From assembly GCA_900314525.1 (NCBI GenBank), contig OMVN01000004.1:1-64000 (forward strand): DNA of 64,000 bases, given 5' to 3'. This stretch comes from an uncultured Eubacteriales bacterium. Lineage in GTDB: Bacteria; Bacillota; Clostridia; Lachnospirales; Lachnospiraceae. The notes under the pieces are model-generated. The model was given only the letters and a program-made list of their open reading frames with translations. It searched no databases and was not told the DNA's origin. Position numbers and translations under genes: made by a program. Shown here piece after piece: positions 2,328 through 46,838 of the stretch (positions are counted from its first letter, which is position 1; the number at the start of each line of letters is the position of its first letter).

Positions 2328-3139
2328 TGAAAAAAGAAATCAAAAAATCATTAGGGTTATTCTTCCTTGGAATTATTATTTGTGTTTTTTCTGTTTTTCT
2401 ATCGAACTACAGTGCATACGCAAAAAATAAGAGTTCATCAAAAAATAATAATGAAAATAGTGATGCAGAGTATTATTACAAAAACGAAAAGACAGGATAT
2501 GAGGCGTATATTTTTGATGAGTCAGATCCAGGTCTATTAACTGAAAAAGAGAAGGAAAAACTGCTAGATGATATTAAAGGAGTAACAACTTATGGTAACG
2601 TTATTTTCTACAGTAATGATAACTCGGACTATGAAGGCAGCGCAAAAAAGAGATATACAAAGTATTTTGGAGAAGAAAGCGGAACAATATTTGCAATAAA
2701 TATGAATAAGAGAAAAATAACATTGTGGAGTTATGGAGATGTTTTGGATGTCATCTCTAAAGGAAGGTCCGATGTTATTGTATCAAATACGTATTCATAT
2801 GCAACTAAAAAGAAATACTATAAATGTGCATCTGAAGTATTTGCAGAAACTGAGACATTGCTAAAAGGCGGACACGTTAGCATGCCTATGAAACACATGT
2901 CCAATGCACTGCTGGCACTGGCGGTTGTGGCATTTATAAACTTTATAATTATTCTGGTAAGCAGAAGCAGGGAAGAACCTGCTATTTGGGAGATAATTAA
3001 ATCAATAGATTACAAACATGATGGAGATGTAAATGTAAAATTTACACATACAACAAAAAAATATGATCCCCCTTCTAGTTCCTCATCTGACAGTGGTGGA
3101 GGCGGAGGCGGAGGCGGCGGAAGCAGCCATAGTTTCTAA
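2327..3139 (+). CDS. TPM-domain membrane protein with Gly-rich tail
   Basis: An N-terminal membrane segment or signal (about residues 9-30) is followed by a TPM-type domain (about 55-175, with LTEKEKEKLLDDI and the GTIFAINM/ITLWSYGD region). A second membrane helix lies at about 193-212. The C-terminus is a Ser-rich then poly-Gly stretch ending in SSHSF, a tail seen repeatedly in TPM proteins. TPM domains are linked to envelope processes and photosystem repair in other lineages; the role in Firmicutes is unclear. It is translationally coupled to the zinc-ribbon protein, so the two may form one membrane complex (inference). Confidence 0.8.
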   Translation: MKKEIKKSLGLFFLGIIICVFSVFLSNYSAYAKNKSSSKNNNENSDAEYYYKNEKTGYEAYIFDESDPGLLTEKEKEKLLDDIKGVTTYGNVIFYSNDNSDYEGSAKKRYTKYFGEESGTIFAINMNKRKITLWSYGDVLDVISKGRSDVIVSNTYSYATKKKYYKCASEVFAETETLLKGGHVSMPMKHMSNALLALAVVAFINFIIILVSRSREEPAIWEIIKSIDYKHDGDVNVKFTHTTKKYDPPSSSSSDSGGGGGGGGGSSHSF

Positions 3140-3218
3140 GAATCTATAATGAATAATATTTGACATCAAAATAATACCATGTTAGAATACAGAAAATAGT
3201 TACAGAATATGAATTGTC

Positions 3219-3318
3219 ATTACGGTTCACCGGAACGGTAATATAAAGGCATCTAGACCTAGGTCGTAGGTACGGCGCGAAAGCGTTATAAGACTTGGGT
3301 CTGGATGCTTATTTTTTT
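3219..3318 (+). ncRNA. Structured leader RNA, terminator-type riboswitch candidate
   Basis: Two hairpins lie in the leader of the GNAT gene. The first pairs ATTAC/GTAAT and GTTC/GAAC (3219-3242) around an ACCG tetraloop, with one G-G mismatch. The second is a 17-pair stem (3249-3265 with 3292-3308, several G-U pairs) enclosing an asymmetric loop with GTAGGTACGG and a small GAAA-capped hairpin. The 3' arm runs straight into a U-rich tract (3309-3318) just before the GGAGG of the next gene, so the second hairpin can act as a terminator. Loop bases CCG (3230-3232) could kiss CGG (3273-3275). Two hairpins with loop contact and a terminator-forming second hairpin recall the guanidine-IV (mepA) class, and the downstream exporter remnant fits; the class is not proven. 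Confidence 0.5.
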
Positions 3319-3328
3319 GGAGGTACAA

Positions 3329-3748
3329 ATGAAAATAAAATTATTTAATGAACTGACATCGGATTCAATTTTAGTAAGAGAGGAAGTTTTTATAAGGGAA
3401 CAGGGATTTATAGAGGAGTTTGATGATACAGATAAAATTGCATGTCACTTAGTTGCCTTTGATGGTGATAAACCAGTAGGAACATGTCGTTTTTTCTTTA
3501 ATAAATACAGACAGAGCTGGATAATTGGAAGAGTAGCTGTCCTAGAGATTGCAAGAGGGCTTAATGTTGGCAGTCTGATAATAAATGAAGCAGAGAAACA
3601 TATACGAGAAATGAATGGAAAGTTAATTGAATTAGCAGCACAGAAACAGGCAGAACATTTTTATGCAAAAAATGGTTATGTATCCTTTGGAGAACTGTTT
3701 TATGATGAACACTGTTTGCACACATGGATGAGAAAGGAACTTGTATAA
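3329..3748 (+). CDS. GNAT-family N-acetyltransferase
   Basis: This is a single-domain GNAT protein of about 139 residues, close to the ElaA/YjcF type. Visible features are the N-terminal REEVFIREQGF motif typical of this subgroup, the VGTCRFF strand, a GRVAV strand followed by ARGLNVGSLI (the acetyl-CoA pyrophosphate loop region) and the C-terminal AEHFYAKNGY motif. The acetyl acceptor is unknown. The ATG at 3329 is preferred because GGAGG lies 6 bases upstream; a start at 3305 would lie inside the RNA terminator stem. The downstream exporter remnant begins at the base after its stop codon, so both were one transcript under the leader RNA. Confidence 0.8.
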   Translation: MKIKLFNELTSDSILVREEVFIREQGFIEEFDDTDKIACHLVAFDGDKPVGTCRFFFNKYRQSWIIGRVAVLEIARGLNVGSLIINEAEKHIREMNGKLIELAAQKQAEHFYAKNGYVSFGELFYDEHCLHTWMRKELV

Positions 3749-4043
3749 ATGAATAAATTAATATCAATATTTCCTCTTATTATGGAAAGAGAGTCTGAGT
3801 GAAGGCATATCTCATCTTGGAGTAGGTAATTTTGCACTTGGTGCAGTGATTATTTTGTTGGAGGGAGGATGGATACTTGTGTATAGAAGCGGGTTTCAGA
3901 TTAGTAATACCTCACTTATGGCTAATATTATTCTAGCAATAATTCTTTTTCTGATTGGAATAATATTTTTGCATGAGCCAATTACTGCAAGAAAAGTGAT
4001 TGGAATTGTAGTATGTATTGCAGGTGTATACCTGATAAAGTGA
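3749..4043 (+). pseudogene. Decayed DMT/EamA-type small transporter
   Basis: An ATG directly after the GNAT stop, with AAAGGA 9 bases upstream, opens a 17-codon peptide that stops at 3800-3802. From about 3780 a different frame encodes the C-terminal part of a DMT/EamA-like exporter: GVGNFALGAVIILLEGG, then VYRSGFQISNTSLMANIIL, then the helix IGIIFLHEPITARKVIG and a final helix ending VYLIK. Intact relatives are about 140 residues with four helices, so roughly the first helix and its following loop are missing. A deletion with a frameshift explains this best. A GTG at 3846 could start a 65-residue remnant, but no good ribosome site is seen there. Confidence 0.65.
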
Positions 4044-4076
4044 TAGTCTTATCTGTTGCTTAGATTAAATAAACAG

Positions 4077-4105
4077 TTGATTTTTAAAAAATACTCTGCT
4101 ATAAT
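4077..4105 (+). promoter_or_regulatory. Sigma-A type promoter for the leuA leader
   Basis: TTGATT at 4077-4082 and TATAAT at 4100-4105 are separated by 17 bases. Transcription would begin near 4112, just before the T-box stem I. Confidence 0.75.
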
Positions 4106-4111
4106 CGATAA

Positions 4112-4390
4112 ATAAAGGTTATGAAGAGGAATATTAGTCATAGGACTGATTTCAGAGAGCCATCGGCAGGTGTGAGATGGCAGAGGAAATATGATGAACT
4201 CGCCTTGGAACTGTCATCCGAAATGCACCGCAGAGTAGAAATGAACGGAAACCCACCGTTACAGGGGTAGGGCATATAAGTGTCTGATGAGTGTATAAGT
4301 TTTTACTTATGAATTAGAGTGGTACCGCGGAGCATATCCTTCGTCTCTAGTTGCTTACGGAGCAGCTGAAGACGGAGGTTTTTTTATAGT
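4112..4390 (+). promoter_or_regulatory. Leucine T-box leader of leuA
   Basis: The leader shows an AGTA-box (near 4234-4240), a specifier region GAACTC with CTC at 4199-4201 (a leucine codon) and the T-box core AGAGTGGTACCGCGG (about 4316-4330). It ends in a terminator: CCTTCGTCT pairs with AGACGGAGG, followed by seven T (about 4340-4386). Uncharged tRNA-Leu would pair with CTC and, through its NCCA end, with the T-box bulge, opening the terminator. The leucine specifier matches the biosynthetic gene downstream. Confidence 0.93.
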
Positions 4391-4464
4391 AATTGCTTCT
4401 GAAAACCAGTACTTGGCTGCCACAAAATAATAAATTATAAATAATCGAAAAGGAGATTGATACT

Positions 4465-6123
4465 ATGGAAAGTTACAAGAAATATTCGAGATCATATTTT
4501 TTACCACCTGTTGTTACTTATGACTGGGTAAAAAAGGACTATGTAGATAAAGCACCAATGTGGTGCAGCGTAGATTTGAGAGATGGAAATCAGGCGCTTA
4601 TTGAGCCAATGAGTCTTGAAGAAAAACTGGAGTTTTTTAAACTTCTTGTAAAGATTGGATTTAAGGAAATAGAGATTGGTTTCCCAGCAGCATCAGATAC
4701 AGAATTTGAATTTACAAGAGCCCTGATTGAGAGAAATATGATACCTGAGGACGTTACAATTCAGGTTCTTACACAGGCAAGAGAACATATAATCAAGAAG
4801 ACATTTGAGGCAGTTAAGGGTGCTCCAAGAGCTGTTATACATGTATATAATTCTACATCTGTATGGCAGAGAGAGCAGGTATTTAAGAAATCTAAAGAGG
4901 AAATTAAGCAGATTGCAATTGATGGTGCTGCTTTATTAAAGAAACTTGCTGACGAGACAGATGGTAATTTTGCATTTGAATACAGTCCAGAAAGTTTTTC
5001 ACAGACAGAGATGGACTATGCTCTTGAGGTTGTAAATGCAGTACTTGATGTATGGCAGCCAAAGGCAGAAAATAAGCCAATAATAAATCTTCCAATGACA
5101 GTTGAAAATATGATGCCACATGTTGCAGCATGCCAGATAGAATATTTTAATAAAAACATGAAATATAGAGATAATGTTGTTTTATCTCTTCACCCACATA
5201 ATGACAGAGGATGTGGTGTTGCAAATGCAGAGATGTGTCTTCTTGCAGGAGCTGACAGAGTAGAAGGAACAATATTTGGTAACGGAGAGAGAACAGGTAA
5301 TGTTGATATAGTAACTATCGCAATGAACATGTTCTCACAGGGTGTTGATCCTGAACTTGATTTCAGCAATATGCCAGAAATAAGAGAAACATATGAGAGA
5401 CTTACAAGAATGGATGTATCTCCAAGACAGCCATATGGTGGAGATTTAGTATTTACAGCATTTTCAGGTTCTCATCAGGACGCAATCGCTAAGGGTATGA
5501 CATGCAGAGAGGAAAGCGGAAAACCAGACTGGAAAGTACCTTATCTCCCAATTGACCCAGTTGATGTTGGACGTACTTATGATTCTGATGTTATCAGATT
5601 TAACAGCCAGTCAGGTAAAGGCGGAATGGGATATATCTTAAAGAATTCTTTCGATATTGTTCTTCCTAAGAATATGAGAGATGATGTGAGCTATTTCCTT
5701 AAGGGAGTTTCAGATGAGACACATAGTGAACTTACACCAGATGTTATTTATGATGAATTCAAGAAAGAATTTATTGATAAGGAATCAGAATTTAAGATTG
5801 CAGATGTTCACTTCAAACAGGAAGAGGGAATTGTTGCAACTGTATCAATAAAGAGCAAAGATGGAAAAACAGTCGATGTTGTATCTGCAGGTAATGGACG
5901 TCTTGATTCAGTAAGTAATGCACTTAAGAAACACTTTGGAATTACTTACAAGCTCACAGAGTACCAGGAACAGGCAATGAGTTCAGGTTCTCAGTCAAAT
6001 GCCATTGCATATGTATCAATTAATTACAACGACAAGATGTACTGGGGTGCTGGAATTGATCCTGATATCATCAAAGCTTCAATAAATGCTTTAGCTGTAG
6101 CAGTAAATAGAGCAATGCAGTAA
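4465..6123 (+). CDS. leuA: 2-isopropylmalate synthase
   Basis: This enzyme condenses acetyl-CoA with 2-oxoisovalerate in the first committed step of leucine synthesis. The 552-residue product has the DmpG/HMGL-like TIM barrel with VDLRDGNQAL (residues 36-45, metal and substrate binding), the metal-binding LHPHNDRG motif (about 242-249) and GNGERTGNVD (about 273-282). The C-terminal part (about 430-552) contains the LeuA dimerisation/leucine-feedback domain, including GAGIDPDII. The length matches the longer LeuA form found in many bacteria and fungi. AGGAG lies ahead of the ATG. It stands alone, without leuB, leuC or leuD, and is controlled by the leucine T-box. Confidence 0.95.
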   Translation: MESYKKYSRSYFLPPVVTYDWVKKDYVDKAPMWCSVDLRDGNQALIEPMSLEEKLEFFKLLVKIGFKEIEIGFPAASDTEFEFTRALIERNMIPEDVTIQVLTQAREHIIKKTFEAVKGAPRAVIHVYNSTSVWQREQVFKKSKEEIKQIAIDGAALLKKLADETDGNFAFEYSPESFSQTEMDYALEVVNAVLDVWQPKAENKPIINLPMTVENMMPHVAACQIEYFNKNMKYRDNVVLSLHPHNDRGCGVANAEMCLLAGADRVEGTIFGNGERTGNVDIVTIAMNMFSQGVDPELDFSNMPEIRETYERLTRMDVSPRQPYGGDLVFTAFSGSHQDAIAKGMTCREESGKPDWKVPYLPIDPVDVGRTYDSDVIRFNSQSGKGGMGYILKNSFDIVLPKNMRDDVSYFLKGVSDETHSELTPDVIYDEFKKEFIDKESEFKIADVHFKQEEGIVATVSIKSKDGKTVDVVSAGNGRLDSVSNALKKHFGITYKLTEYQEQAMSSGSQSNAIAYVSINYNDKMYWGAGIDPDIIKASINALAVAVNRAMQ

Positions 6124-7582: not shown

Positions 7583-9289
7583 TTATCCTTCTTTCTCTAT
7601 TTTCATAAGGTCTTCATTGATCACTGCCGCCTGCGTCCTGACATTTGCTGCCGTCATATTAAATGCTTTTAGGATTTCCTTTTGTACAGCTGTAACTGCA
7701 TAATCCATCCGGTATCCACGGTCACTCTGCCGGATCAGTTCTATCTTTTCCAGTTCCCTGATCGCTGCCGGAACTGTCATATAGTTTTTCTTCCCGCTTT
7801 TTTGCATCTGTTCTTTCAGGCAGCTGTAAAACCTGTTGCGGATGATCAATGCAACAAACTCTATAAATATCTTTGCATGTACCGATTCATTTGCATGTAC
7901 ACGAAAGCTCTTATTTCCAAGATATGACTTATCCCCACGGAACAGTTTTTCCGATACATCCCTGCTTTTATAATGCTCAAGTGCCTGTGCTGCTGTCATT
8001 TTTTCTGACGTTATGATAACAAAGTATCCGCATAGACGTATCTCCTCATTGATCACATCATGGCGTTCCCGTCCATACATGAATTTTTCGTCTTTTTTCC
8101 CTTTATGGTAATAGATCAGATCAAAGTATCTGGCAAAGCCTCCTGTAACTTCGTATTTTGTTCCTTCATGCTTGTGGAGACATTCCGCCATCCGGTCAAT
8201 CTTTGCTTCAATTGCCTCATGTTCGCTGCTTTTCTTTCTGTCATTGTAAAACACATGGAAATACCGTTCTTTTTCATCCGATGGATAAAGCTGCCTTTTT
8301 ACTGTAATTCCGCTTACTCTGTAATCCCTGATGCTATATCTGCGGTCTTCTTCAAAAGTACCCTTCACTTCAAGGACAAGACTTTTCACAAGTTCTTTCA
8401 TTCCCTTCATCATAATGACAAAGTCATAGCCGCATTTGTCCATGTAATGTATATTTTCTTTGCTGAAATATCCCCTGTCCAGGATAAATCCAACATTTTT
8501 ATAGCCATAACCACCGGCCTTTTCCAGTGTATACTGCAGTTGGGATACATCTACAATACTGCCTGGATAGTCTTCATAATACAATGGTTTTGCATTGTTT
8601 TCATCATAGCCAACCGAATAATTAATGACTGGTGCTCCTGTATCTTCTTTTGGATGGCCGTATTCTACAAAGTCTATATCACCTGCCTGACAGTTCTTAT
8701 TTGTTGAATCATAAGAAATATAAATTTTCTGTTTATGATCCTGTTTTGCATTCCATCCGTCTAAAAATGCAAGACTATGGTCTCTTGTAATGCTGTTAAT
8801 AAACTCAGAAACCTTTGAATCACTGTATATCTTCATCTGCTCCGTAAATAATGGATGATTAAATGCATACTCAGGATAATACTGTCCGGCATTATTTTCA
8901 GCAATGACCGAATACACAGCCAGATCCAGAAACAGACCGCTGTCCTTTCCGATTATGTTCCCGATCATCTCATCCAGATGATACTCTGAAATGATCCTGC
9001 GTAAGACTAGATATGTCCCTACCCTGAGACATCCGCTTCTATAGGCTTCCGCTTTCGTCTCAGGTAATTCCTCCGAGGGAAAGAATTTCAGAAAATTTGT
9101 ATTCGGATACATCATTTCCGGATCATCCTCCGTACACTTCCCAATGGATGTATTCCGGGGAATCGTATATCTTTTTTCAGGATTGTAATTATGTTCATAC
9201 GCATAATAAATATATGTGATCCCTTTAATTTTCTTGCGGGTAATTCCCGCTGCATCATACGGTATTTTCACTTTAAAATCAAGGTACAT
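7583..9289 (-). CDS. IS4/IS1634-family DDE transposase
   Basis: The 568-residue protein has the RNase H-like DDE core of the IS4 superfamily. YISYDSTN (about residues 191-198) carries the first Asp, FILDRGYFS (about 268-276) the second, and YKSRDVSEKLFRGDK (about 442-456) matches the Y(2)R(3)E(6)K signature with the catalytic Glu. A long insertion between the second Asp and the Glu is typical of IS1634-like members. AAGAAGG lies 6 bases before the ATG. The frame is intact, so the transposase may be functional. It is the first gene of the three-gene minus-strand unit. Confidence 0.9.
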   Translation of the reverse strand: MYLDFKVKIPYDAAGITRKKIKGITYIYYAYEHNYNPEKRYTIPRNTSIGKCTEDDPEMMYPNTNFLKFFPSEELPETKAEAYRSGCLRVGTYLVLRRIISEYHLDEMIGNIIGKDSGLFLDLAVYSVIAENNAGQYYPEYAFNHPLFTEQMKIYSDSKVSEFINSITRDHSLAFLDGWNAKQDHKQKIYISYDSTNKNCQAGDIDFVEYGHPKEDTGAPVINYSVGYDENNAKPLYYEDYPGSIVDVSQLQYTLEKAGGYGYKNVGFILDRGYFSKENIHYMDKCGYDFVIMMKGMKELVKSLVLEVKGTFEEDRRYSIRDYRVSGITVKRQLYPSDEKERYFHVFYNDRKKSSEHEAIEAKIDRMAECLHKHEGTKYEVTGGFARYFDLIYYHKGKKDEKFMYGRERHDVINEEIRLCGYFVIITSEKMTAAQALEHYKSRDVSEKLFRGDKSYLGNKSFRVHANESVHAKIFIEFVALIIRNRFYSCLKEQMQKSGKKNYMTVPAAIRELEKIELIRQSDRGYRMDYAVTAVQKEILKAFNMTAANVRTQAAVINEDLMKIEKEG

Positions 9290-45488: not shown

Positions 45489-45626
45489 CTCTTATTAAGA
45501 GTGGCGGAGATACAAGGATCTGTGAAGCCCGGCAACCCCCCCGTGAGGAAGGTGCTAACCTGAGCGAGAAATCGAACAATAAGTGGAAGTGAATATACAG
45601 TCTACTTTTGCGGTGGACTTTTTTAG
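45489..45626 (+). promoter_or_regulatory. SAM-I (S-box) riboswitch of metK
   Basis: The aptamer begins CTTATTAAGAGTGGCGGAG and contains GTGAAGCCCGGCAACC, AAGGTGCTAACC and a closing AATAAG that completes P1 (45491-45583). A terminator follows: AGTCTAC pairs with GTGGACT (45599-45619), then TTTTTT. Binding of SAM should keep P1 closed and allow the terminator, switching metK off when SAM is plentiful. Confidence 0.96.
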
Positions 45627-45650: not shown

Positions 45651-46838
45651 ATGGAGAAATTATTATTTACTTCAGAGTCTGTTACAGAAGGACATCCTGA
45701 TAAAATATGTGATCAGATCTCTGATGCTGTTCTTGATGAATTATTAAAACAGGATCCATTAAGCAGAGTTGCATGCGAGACAGCAGTTACAACAGGTCTT
45801 GTGCTTGTTATGGGTGAAATATCATCAAAAGCTCATATCAACATTCAGAAAATTGTAAGAAAAACAATTTTGGATATCGGATACGATGATACTGATAAGG
45901 GATTTGACGGTAATACATGTGGAGTTATGGTTGCTCTTGATAAGCAATCTAAGGATATTGCTATGGGAGTTGACAAGGCATTTGAAGCAAAACAGAACAA
46001 AATGACAGACGAGGAAATTGATGCTATAGGAGCAGGTGATCAGGGTATGATGTTTGGATATGCCTCTAATGAAACAGAGGAATATATGCCATATCCAATA
46101 GCACTTGCACACAAGCTGGCAAGAAGACTTACTGAGGTTCGTAAAGACGGTACACTCCCATATTTAAGACCAGATGGTAAGACACAGGTAACAGTTGAAT
46201 ATGATGAAAATGGAAAACCAGTTCATCTCAATGCGGTAGTATTATCAACACAGCATGACGCAGAAGTTACACAGGAACAGATTCATACAGATATCAAGAA
46301 ATATGTATTTGATCCTATTCTTCCTGAAGAATTAATAGATGATGATACTAAGTATTTTATCAATCCTACAGGAAGATTCGTAATTGGCGGACCAAACGGA
46401 GACAGCGGACTAACAGGAAGAAAAATTATAGTAGATACATACGGCGGATATGCTCGTCACGGCGGTGGTGCGTTCTCAGGAAAAGACCCAACAAAAGTTG
46501 ACCGTTCAGCAGCTTATGCAGCAAGATATGTTGCAAAGAATATAGTTGCAGCAGGACTTGCAGATAAATGTGAAATCCAGTTATCATATGCAATCGGTGT
46601 GGCACATCCAACATCGGTTATGGTTGATACATTTGGAACAGGTAAGTTAAGCGATAACAAAATCGTAGATATCATCAGGGAAAACTTTGATTTAAGACCA
46701 GCAGGAATTATTGAGATGTTAGACCTTAGAAGACCAATCTACAAACAGACAGCAGCTTATGGACATTTTGGAAGAAATGATCTTGATCTTCCATGGGAAA
46801 AGACAGACAAAGTCGATATATTAAAAAGCTATATATAA
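45651..46838 (+). CDS. metK: S-adenosylmethionine synthetase
   Basis: MetK makes SAM from methionine and ATP. The 395-residue product has [20 protein letters not shown] at the start, the pyrophosphate-binding [12 protein letters not shown] and the phosphate loop [19 protein letters not shown]. Length and motifs are fully normal. It is transcribed alone from the riboswitch-controlled promoter and closed by a strong terminator. Confidence 0.97.

Follow-up and report, generated by a model that had tools for sequence, protein, structure and literature searches.

The question raised by positions 3219 to 3318 of the window (the whole stretch of DNA analysed here, 64,000 nucleotides in length) is what kind of RNA stands ahead of the acetyltransferase gene that begins at 3329. 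The initial annotation compared this leader with the guanidine-IV (mepA) riboswitch. Lenkeit et al. (2022; PMC9788692) have described a variant of that motif, the orphan riboswitch candidate Gd4v. We conclude, with a probability of about 0.88, that the leader is a Gd4v-motif riboswitch candidate and most likely a transcriptional ON switch. Its anatomy, conservation, covariation, class features and gene context are what the analysis itself shows.

All of the features of the leader lie on the forward strand. There is a promoter-like match at 3160 to 3188 (TTGACA, a 17 nt spacer and TAGAAT, with TG preceding the second hexamer), which has 11 of the 12 consensus letters and is the best of eight matches in the region 3100 to 4500, where shuffled sequences gave 5.5 matches of any quality. 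The first predicted hairpin, P1, runs from 3219 to 3242 and carries the loop ACCG (3229 to 3232) on the closing pair C3228-G3233; below it the minimum free energy (MFE) fold also pairs 3214-3217 with 3243-3246. The second, P2, occupies 3247 to 3310 and would act both as the second half of the aptamer and as the terminator stem. Its long stem had been given as 17 pairs, but we count 19 (3247-3265 with 3292-3310). Within P2 the inner loop has a conserved 5' side, GUAGGUACG (3266 to 3274), and a 3' side, UAUAA (3287 to 3291), and between the two lies the D2 mini-hairpin (3275 to 3286; GCGC-GAAA-GCGU, with GAAA as the cap). The MFE fold places three weak extra pairs in this loop (3270-3272 with 3287-3289). 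After the P2 stem and one A there is a U-tract of seven T (3312 to 3318), followed directly by a ribosome-binding site that we read as GGAGG (3319 to 3323) and then by an ATG at 3329. Folding of 3213-3320 gave an MFE of -46.8 kcal/mol. The 200 shuffled sequences averaged -23.4 (sd 2.86), which places the leader at z -8.17, and none of them was equally stable. The two hairpins first read by eye, one capped by ACCG and one running into the U-tract and the ribosome site, are therefore beyond chance. P2 was absent from the output of a simple terminator scan with a loop limit of 8 bases, so the label 'terminator' rests on the stem and the U-tract.

When 98 genomes were compared at the DNA level, the window was the sole match. 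A covariance model, R1, was made from the window sequence alone with the three weak inner-loop pairs omitted. Among 299 genomes of the family, R1 found the window and relatives in 10 of the 298 others (E 8e-15 to 4e-8). The pattern CACCGG...GYAGGTACGG...TATAAG, derived from the conserved letters of these relatives, was scanned over the genome contigs of 84,980 species and gave 107 loci, of which 98 were taken as real. R1 was run on the 11 loci found before and on 81 of the 107; at E < 1e-5 it matched all 11 and every one of the 81 except L073, leaving 80, and L074 to L076 were accepted on this basis. The other 26 pattern loci were judged by eye, 18 as real-looking and eight as chance (L027, L043, L072, L083, L100, L114, L115 and L119). 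Nine of the 107 genome loci are excluded from the counts, as are all four pattern matches in viral contigs, which look like chance by eye; a search for GNAT genes in the viral contigs confirmed none. An earlier pattern, ACCGGAAN{15,45}GTAGGTACGG, was rejected: it gave six matches in the 299 family genomes, the five outside the window look like chance (four by their sequences and L005 by its match line), and the control columns with the reversed pattern likewise gave five.

The 91 leaders matched by R1, window included, were used to build a second model, R2. With R2, plain Gd4v RNA was seen in one of 10 genomes of the window's genus, its own, and the other match in the genus (L140) is of the guanidine-IV type; in a phylum sample five of 398 genomes matched and plain Gd4v was again confined to the window's own, these genome counts being lower bounds because weak matches are lost to the stricter filtering that applies once more than 40 genomes are searched. 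Rfam 15 gave nothing at gathering score over 3219-3318. Over 3140-3350 at E <= 10 it listed mir-3204 (E 0.004), PrrF and SNORD44, all unrelated and far under their gathering scores. A further 12 guanidine-IV-type, Gd4v and variant loci were also without a match, which suggests that Rfam 15 lacks both Gd4v and guanidine-IV. The Rfam scan that the initial annotation had proposed thus does not discriminate, since it misses guanidine-IV-type loci as well.

Covariation in homologous leaders had been named as another check, and it is present. In the alignment of the 91 leaders, changes on both sides are found at 29 of 32 pairs and 94.7% of 2870 cells are paired, in comparison with 33-51% when partners are slid by 1-3 columns. 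Covariation scores 0.752, compared with 0.307 after shuffling and no more than 0.173 after sliding, in an alignment that was fitted to the window's structure through R1 and is biased that way, and with shuffles that ignore relatedness. Double changes affect eight of the nine P1 pairs (the closing C-G is invariant), 18 of the 19 P2 pairs (95.1% of cells paired) and three of the four D2 pairs (99.4% paired). The covariation of the mini-hairpin and of the terminator stem is clear and stands despite the structure-fitted alignment.

The unpaired letters are conserved too. ACCG is found in 88 of the 91 leaders, GYAGGUACG in 90 and UAUAA in 88, where the pattern itself fixed most letters in 80 rows; in the 10 relatives found without the pattern the same letters are present in nine, nine and seven, respectively. 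Two of the three exceptions to ACCG (L026 and L090) are mis-threaded rows in which the pattern had matched CACCGG. The conserved inner loop with a GAAA-capped mini-hairpin, suspected from the window by itself, is thus borne out across the relatives.

The loops may also pair with each other, as the initial annotation had suggested. ACC at 3229 to 3231 is complementary to GGU at 3269-3271, and this pairing is possible in the window and in 88 of the 91 leaders; of the remaining three, two are mis-threaded rows. Compensated changes occur in two divergent RNAs, L134 (AUC:GAU) and L150 (GCC:GGC), and one pair of the kiss is broken in L013 and in L151 (AGCU). Taken together, the data support an ACC:GGU kiss between the P1 and P2 loops but do not prove it. 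The alternative kiss CCG:CGG was set aside because its last L2 base, G3275, is already taken up by a pair of the covarying D2 hairpin; the base before it may extend D2.

The next question is the class of the RNA. In the description given in PMC9788692, Gd4v has two hairpins and a pseudoknot and its terminator hairpin is topped by a D2 hairpin that is missing from guanidine-IV; base D1 separates the two subsets, being G in guanidine-IV and always some other base in Gd4v. We assign D1 in the window to U3289 from mutant numbering, because its position matches the placement of G72 relative to U67 in the Lactococcus lactis guanidine-IV RNA, where a change of G72 abolished the response to guanidine (PMC7736828). 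At this position 89 of the 91 Gd4v leaders carry U; the other two are L011 with C and L016, which is otherwise Gd4v-like, with G.

As a yardstick we used nine guanidine-IV-type leaders. Five (L135 to L139) come from five of 148 genomes, besides L133's own, of the order reached via Secundilactobacillus, three (L151 to L153) from the window's phylum and one (L140, at L140:1501-1583) from its genus. The first eight all stand before MATE-like proteins by ORF reading (the L152 ORF is short). L140 stands before a PnuC gene (63.1 bits, cut-off 42.45), an arrangement already published for guanidine-IV (PMC7736828). D2 is absent from all nine, L140 included, and all nine have a G five letters past GGU (or GCU), right before AAG or GAG. 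The window is the opposite in both respects, with D2 present and U at the assigned D1, which argues that its leader is not guanidine-IV itself, although it probably functions in a similar way.

The models point the same way. R2, whose 91 rows include the window, scores it at 86.6 bits and the nine guanidine-IV-type leaders at 30-47 bits. With a model made from those nine, R3, both the window leader and L134 are missing from the matches at E <= 1; R3 scores three of its own members at 59-77 bits, the hybrid L150 at 40 bits and six of seven other Gd4v leaders at 38-55 bits (L071 is unlisted). Run on the window's own genome at E <= 1, R3 gave no match, so that no second RNA, of the guanidine-IV type, was seen there. 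Gd4v and guanidine-IV are closely related, with a soft border, because L016 has G at D1 and R3 lists six of the seven other Gd4v leaders, and by these comparisons the window falls on the Gd4v side.

A guanidine-IV riboswitch that senses free guanidine would share the two-hairpin plan and the same ACC and GGU loop letters, GNAT genes are found under guanidine-IV too (PMC9788692), and the window's genus does hold a guanidine-IV-type leader, L140. Given D2, the U at D1, the R2 and R3 results and a downstream gene that is not sugE, MATE or PnuC, we regard this explanation as very unlikely. Of the resemblance proposed by the initial annotation, the two-hairpin plan, with loops that can kiss and with P2 as both aptamer half and terminator, stands, and the class does not: the leader belongs with Gd4v.

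The genes behind the leaders were compared for the 105 that have a downstream ORF (four leaders have none in the retrieved sequence), using BLAST clusters of which one or two members each were profiled. Aminotransferases number 53 (47 that cluster with L018 and six with L016), and there are 30 GNAT proteins, eight proteins with an HD-like motif, seven MATE, three LysO, one OCD and three single ORFs, making GNAT the second commonest class. The 105 contain six duplicate pairs (L009/L094, L010/L038, L012/L088, L014/L125, L015/L053 and L018/L102), and without the duplicates there are 99 leaders with 26 GNAT, 52 aminotransferase and six MATE genes. Among the profiled members, the L018 aminotransferase is PRK07324 (524.6 bits, cut-off 476), and L099, L071 and L026 match MatE, Lys_export and OCD, respectively. 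The commonest of these classes agree, as published, with the common Gd4v genes of PMC9788692, namely aminotransferase (PRK07324), GNAT and MATE. The HD-like motif was recognized by eye (L101, L037, L060, L079, L085, L096, L103 and L107), several of these loci being from genomes titled Collinsella or Slackia; the one such protein that was profiled, L101, matches nothing in Pfam or NCBIfam at 1e-5.

The single ORFs are those of L013, L050 and L077. The last two are odd, are probably read in wrong frames and are left outside the class counts. L013 was considered as a Gd4v-linked aminoacyl-tRNA editing gene (PF04073) and rejected: its leader (L013:1501-1594) is similar to that of L039, but both loops are changed and the U-tract is absent. 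It looks like a decayed Gd4v leader related to that of L039.

In the window the downstream gene (3329 to 3748, forward strand, 139 aa) is a GNAT N-acetyltransferase gene, as the initial annotation had it. Pfam PF13673 (49.7 bits, cut-off 23.6), PF00583 and PF13508 are all above cut-off, no NCBIfam cut-off is reached, and among solved structures the closest to it are 1q2y and SACOL1063 (5jph, 5jq4). The protein is 38-49% identical over at least 130 aa to 24 of the 29 other Gd4v-linked GNATs; L009/L094 (27%) and L116 (32%) are more distant, and L047 and L090 align partly.

The GNAT gene is followed at 3749 to 4043, on the same strand, by a broken gene for an EamA-like small transporter, with most of the N-terminal part missing and the frame interrupted. 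Its open piece (3846-4040) matches EamA with 23.5 bits, short of the cut-off of 28.2. At 11 of the 30 Gd4v-GNAT loci the next ORF encodes an EamA-like membrane protein of 140-141 aa, and seven of these 11 genes overlap the preceding GNAT gene by 4 bases. All 11 intact proteins align to 3749-4043 of the window (E 5e-13 to 3e-17, 33-42% identity), from residue 51-57 through to the C-terminal end. By this alignment the decayed exporter noticed earlier is a broken relative of the 140-141-aa gene. 'EamA-like' is a cautious name, because the match in the window is below cut-off and Pfam gives nothing at 1e-5 for the intact protein of L036.

The broken transporter could mean that the leader is itself a decaying Gd4v RNA that has lost useful regulation; the plain RNA was seen in only one of the 10 genomes of the genus, and a decayed leader is known elsewhere (L013). 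We consider this very unlikely, since the conserved letters, the 19 terminator pairs, the U-tract, the promoter match and the open GNAT frame are all intact in the window. As for a ligand-free, factor-independent terminator or attenuator, the long stem and U-tract would suffice for termination, but the conserved unpaired letters, the double changes of P1 and D2 in distant genomes and the recurrent placement ahead of the same few gene classes make it the least credible explanation.

We return to the Gd4v switch. In guanidine-IV, a ligand-stabilized kiss blocks completion of the terminator (PMC7736828; PMC11611296), and a Gd4v RNA without ligand gave the terminated product only (PMC9788692). An ON direction is likely for Gd4v because of this product and the analogy with guanidine-IV, and it is from these papers that we infer ligand binding, the direction of switching and the linker-strain step for the window. 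When ligand is absent, P2 would form fully, meet the U-tract and halt RNA polymerase ahead of the GNAT gene. When ligand is present (probably a guanidine-like compound or other basic amine), ACC of the P1 loop would kiss GGU of P2, and the conserved bases surrounding this contact would form the pocket, their shape being set by the D2 mini-hairpin. The short linker between P1 and P2 would then keep the outer P2 pairs open and transcription would continue into the GNAT gene. The GNAT enzyme may acetylate the amine, with the small EamA-like protein that comes next in relatives, and is broken in the window, as a putative exporter.

For the ligand there are published assays. Guanidine binding was very weak for one of three Gd4v RNAs and absent for the other two; the best substrate of a Mitsuokella GNAT was agmatine, with less acetylation of arginine and canavanine, and none of these switched the RNA. 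None of the compounds tried in 2022 was the ligand (PMC9788692). The motif is reported there as enriched in mammalian guts. We found no later report naming the ligand in a literature survey that drew little on subscription journals, and Gd4v is absent from the passages of a 2025 review that we consulted. One speculative suggestion, which we hold to be doubtful, is that the ligand is an amino acid of the gut with a guanidino or other basic group, either toxic or a nutrient (a hydroxylated arginine would be one example), and that the regulated genes acetylate, export or break it down. GNAT would then acetylate it, the small EamA-like protein, MATE and LysO, together with the LysE controlled by a variant RNA, would export it, and the PRK07324 aminotransferase would break it down with a second aminotransferase or OCD. 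The next-closest NCBIfam families to the L018 PRK07324 protein are GntC (282.8 bits) and VioD (243.1 bits), both below cut-off and named hydroxy-arginine cyclodehydratase and capreomycidine synthase, respectively. The GntC pointer is weak because the L016 aminotransferase matches GntC too (289.8 bits). Two of the exporter families found downstream carry lysine-based names.

If the ligand is a basic amino acid, the RNAs before LysE (L134) and before a Small Multidrug Resistance gene (L150) would be further ligand switches. In Secundilactobacillus similis one contig carries, some 6 kb apart, a Gd4v leader and a divergent second RNA, L134 (L026:861-954). L134 has the loop AUCG and GUAGAUGCG, with the compensated kiss change, and precedes a LysE translocator gene (PF01810). 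A pattern for this variant gave nine matches in eight of 295 genomes of the order and, by the match lines, only L134's own looks real. L150 (L150:1501-1590), from the window's phylum, is a hybrid in which the loop GCCG goes with GUAGGC and a D2-like GAAA-capped hairpin, and its gene is of family PF00893; in the account of PMC9788692 the Gd4v motif was never linked to sugE.

Elsewhere in the window there is a T-box leader (4112-4351, 131 bits) ahead of a 2-isopropylmalate synthase gene (4465-6123; PRK03739), a SAM riboswitch (45489-45585, 66.7 bits) ahead of metK (45651-46838; TIGR01034) and, on the minus strand at 7583-9289, a DDE-domain transposase gene (PF01609).

Each gene partner of Gd4v narrows the choice of ligand. 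The GNAT gene with its small EamA-like neighbour is a gene-context clue of this kind, and the compact pair can be tested as a set. The text of PMC9788692 available to us makes no mention of a small EamA-like second gene at Gd4v-GNAT loci.

In comparison with guanidine-IV (GGAM-1, mepA; PMC7736828; PMC11611296), the window leader has the same overall plan, the same ACC and GGU loops, AAG past the inner loop and, by analogy, terminator-based ON switching. It differs in having D2, in reading UACGGC...UAUAAG where guanidine-IV has UCUUNGAAG, and in lacking a sugE, MATE or PnuC gene downstream. With Gd4v as described in PMC9788692 it has in common the two hairpins, the possible pseudoknot, a terminator as the second hairpin with D2 on top, a base other than G at the assigned D1 and a downstream GNAT gene; no distinguishing feature was found in this comparison, which covered the hairpins, D1, D2 and the downstream gene. 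The initial annotation had foreseen a new regulatory RNA if the leader was not guanidine-IV. It matches the published sister motif instead, and is clearly a further member of the already described, still orphan Gd4v class of riboswitch candidates.
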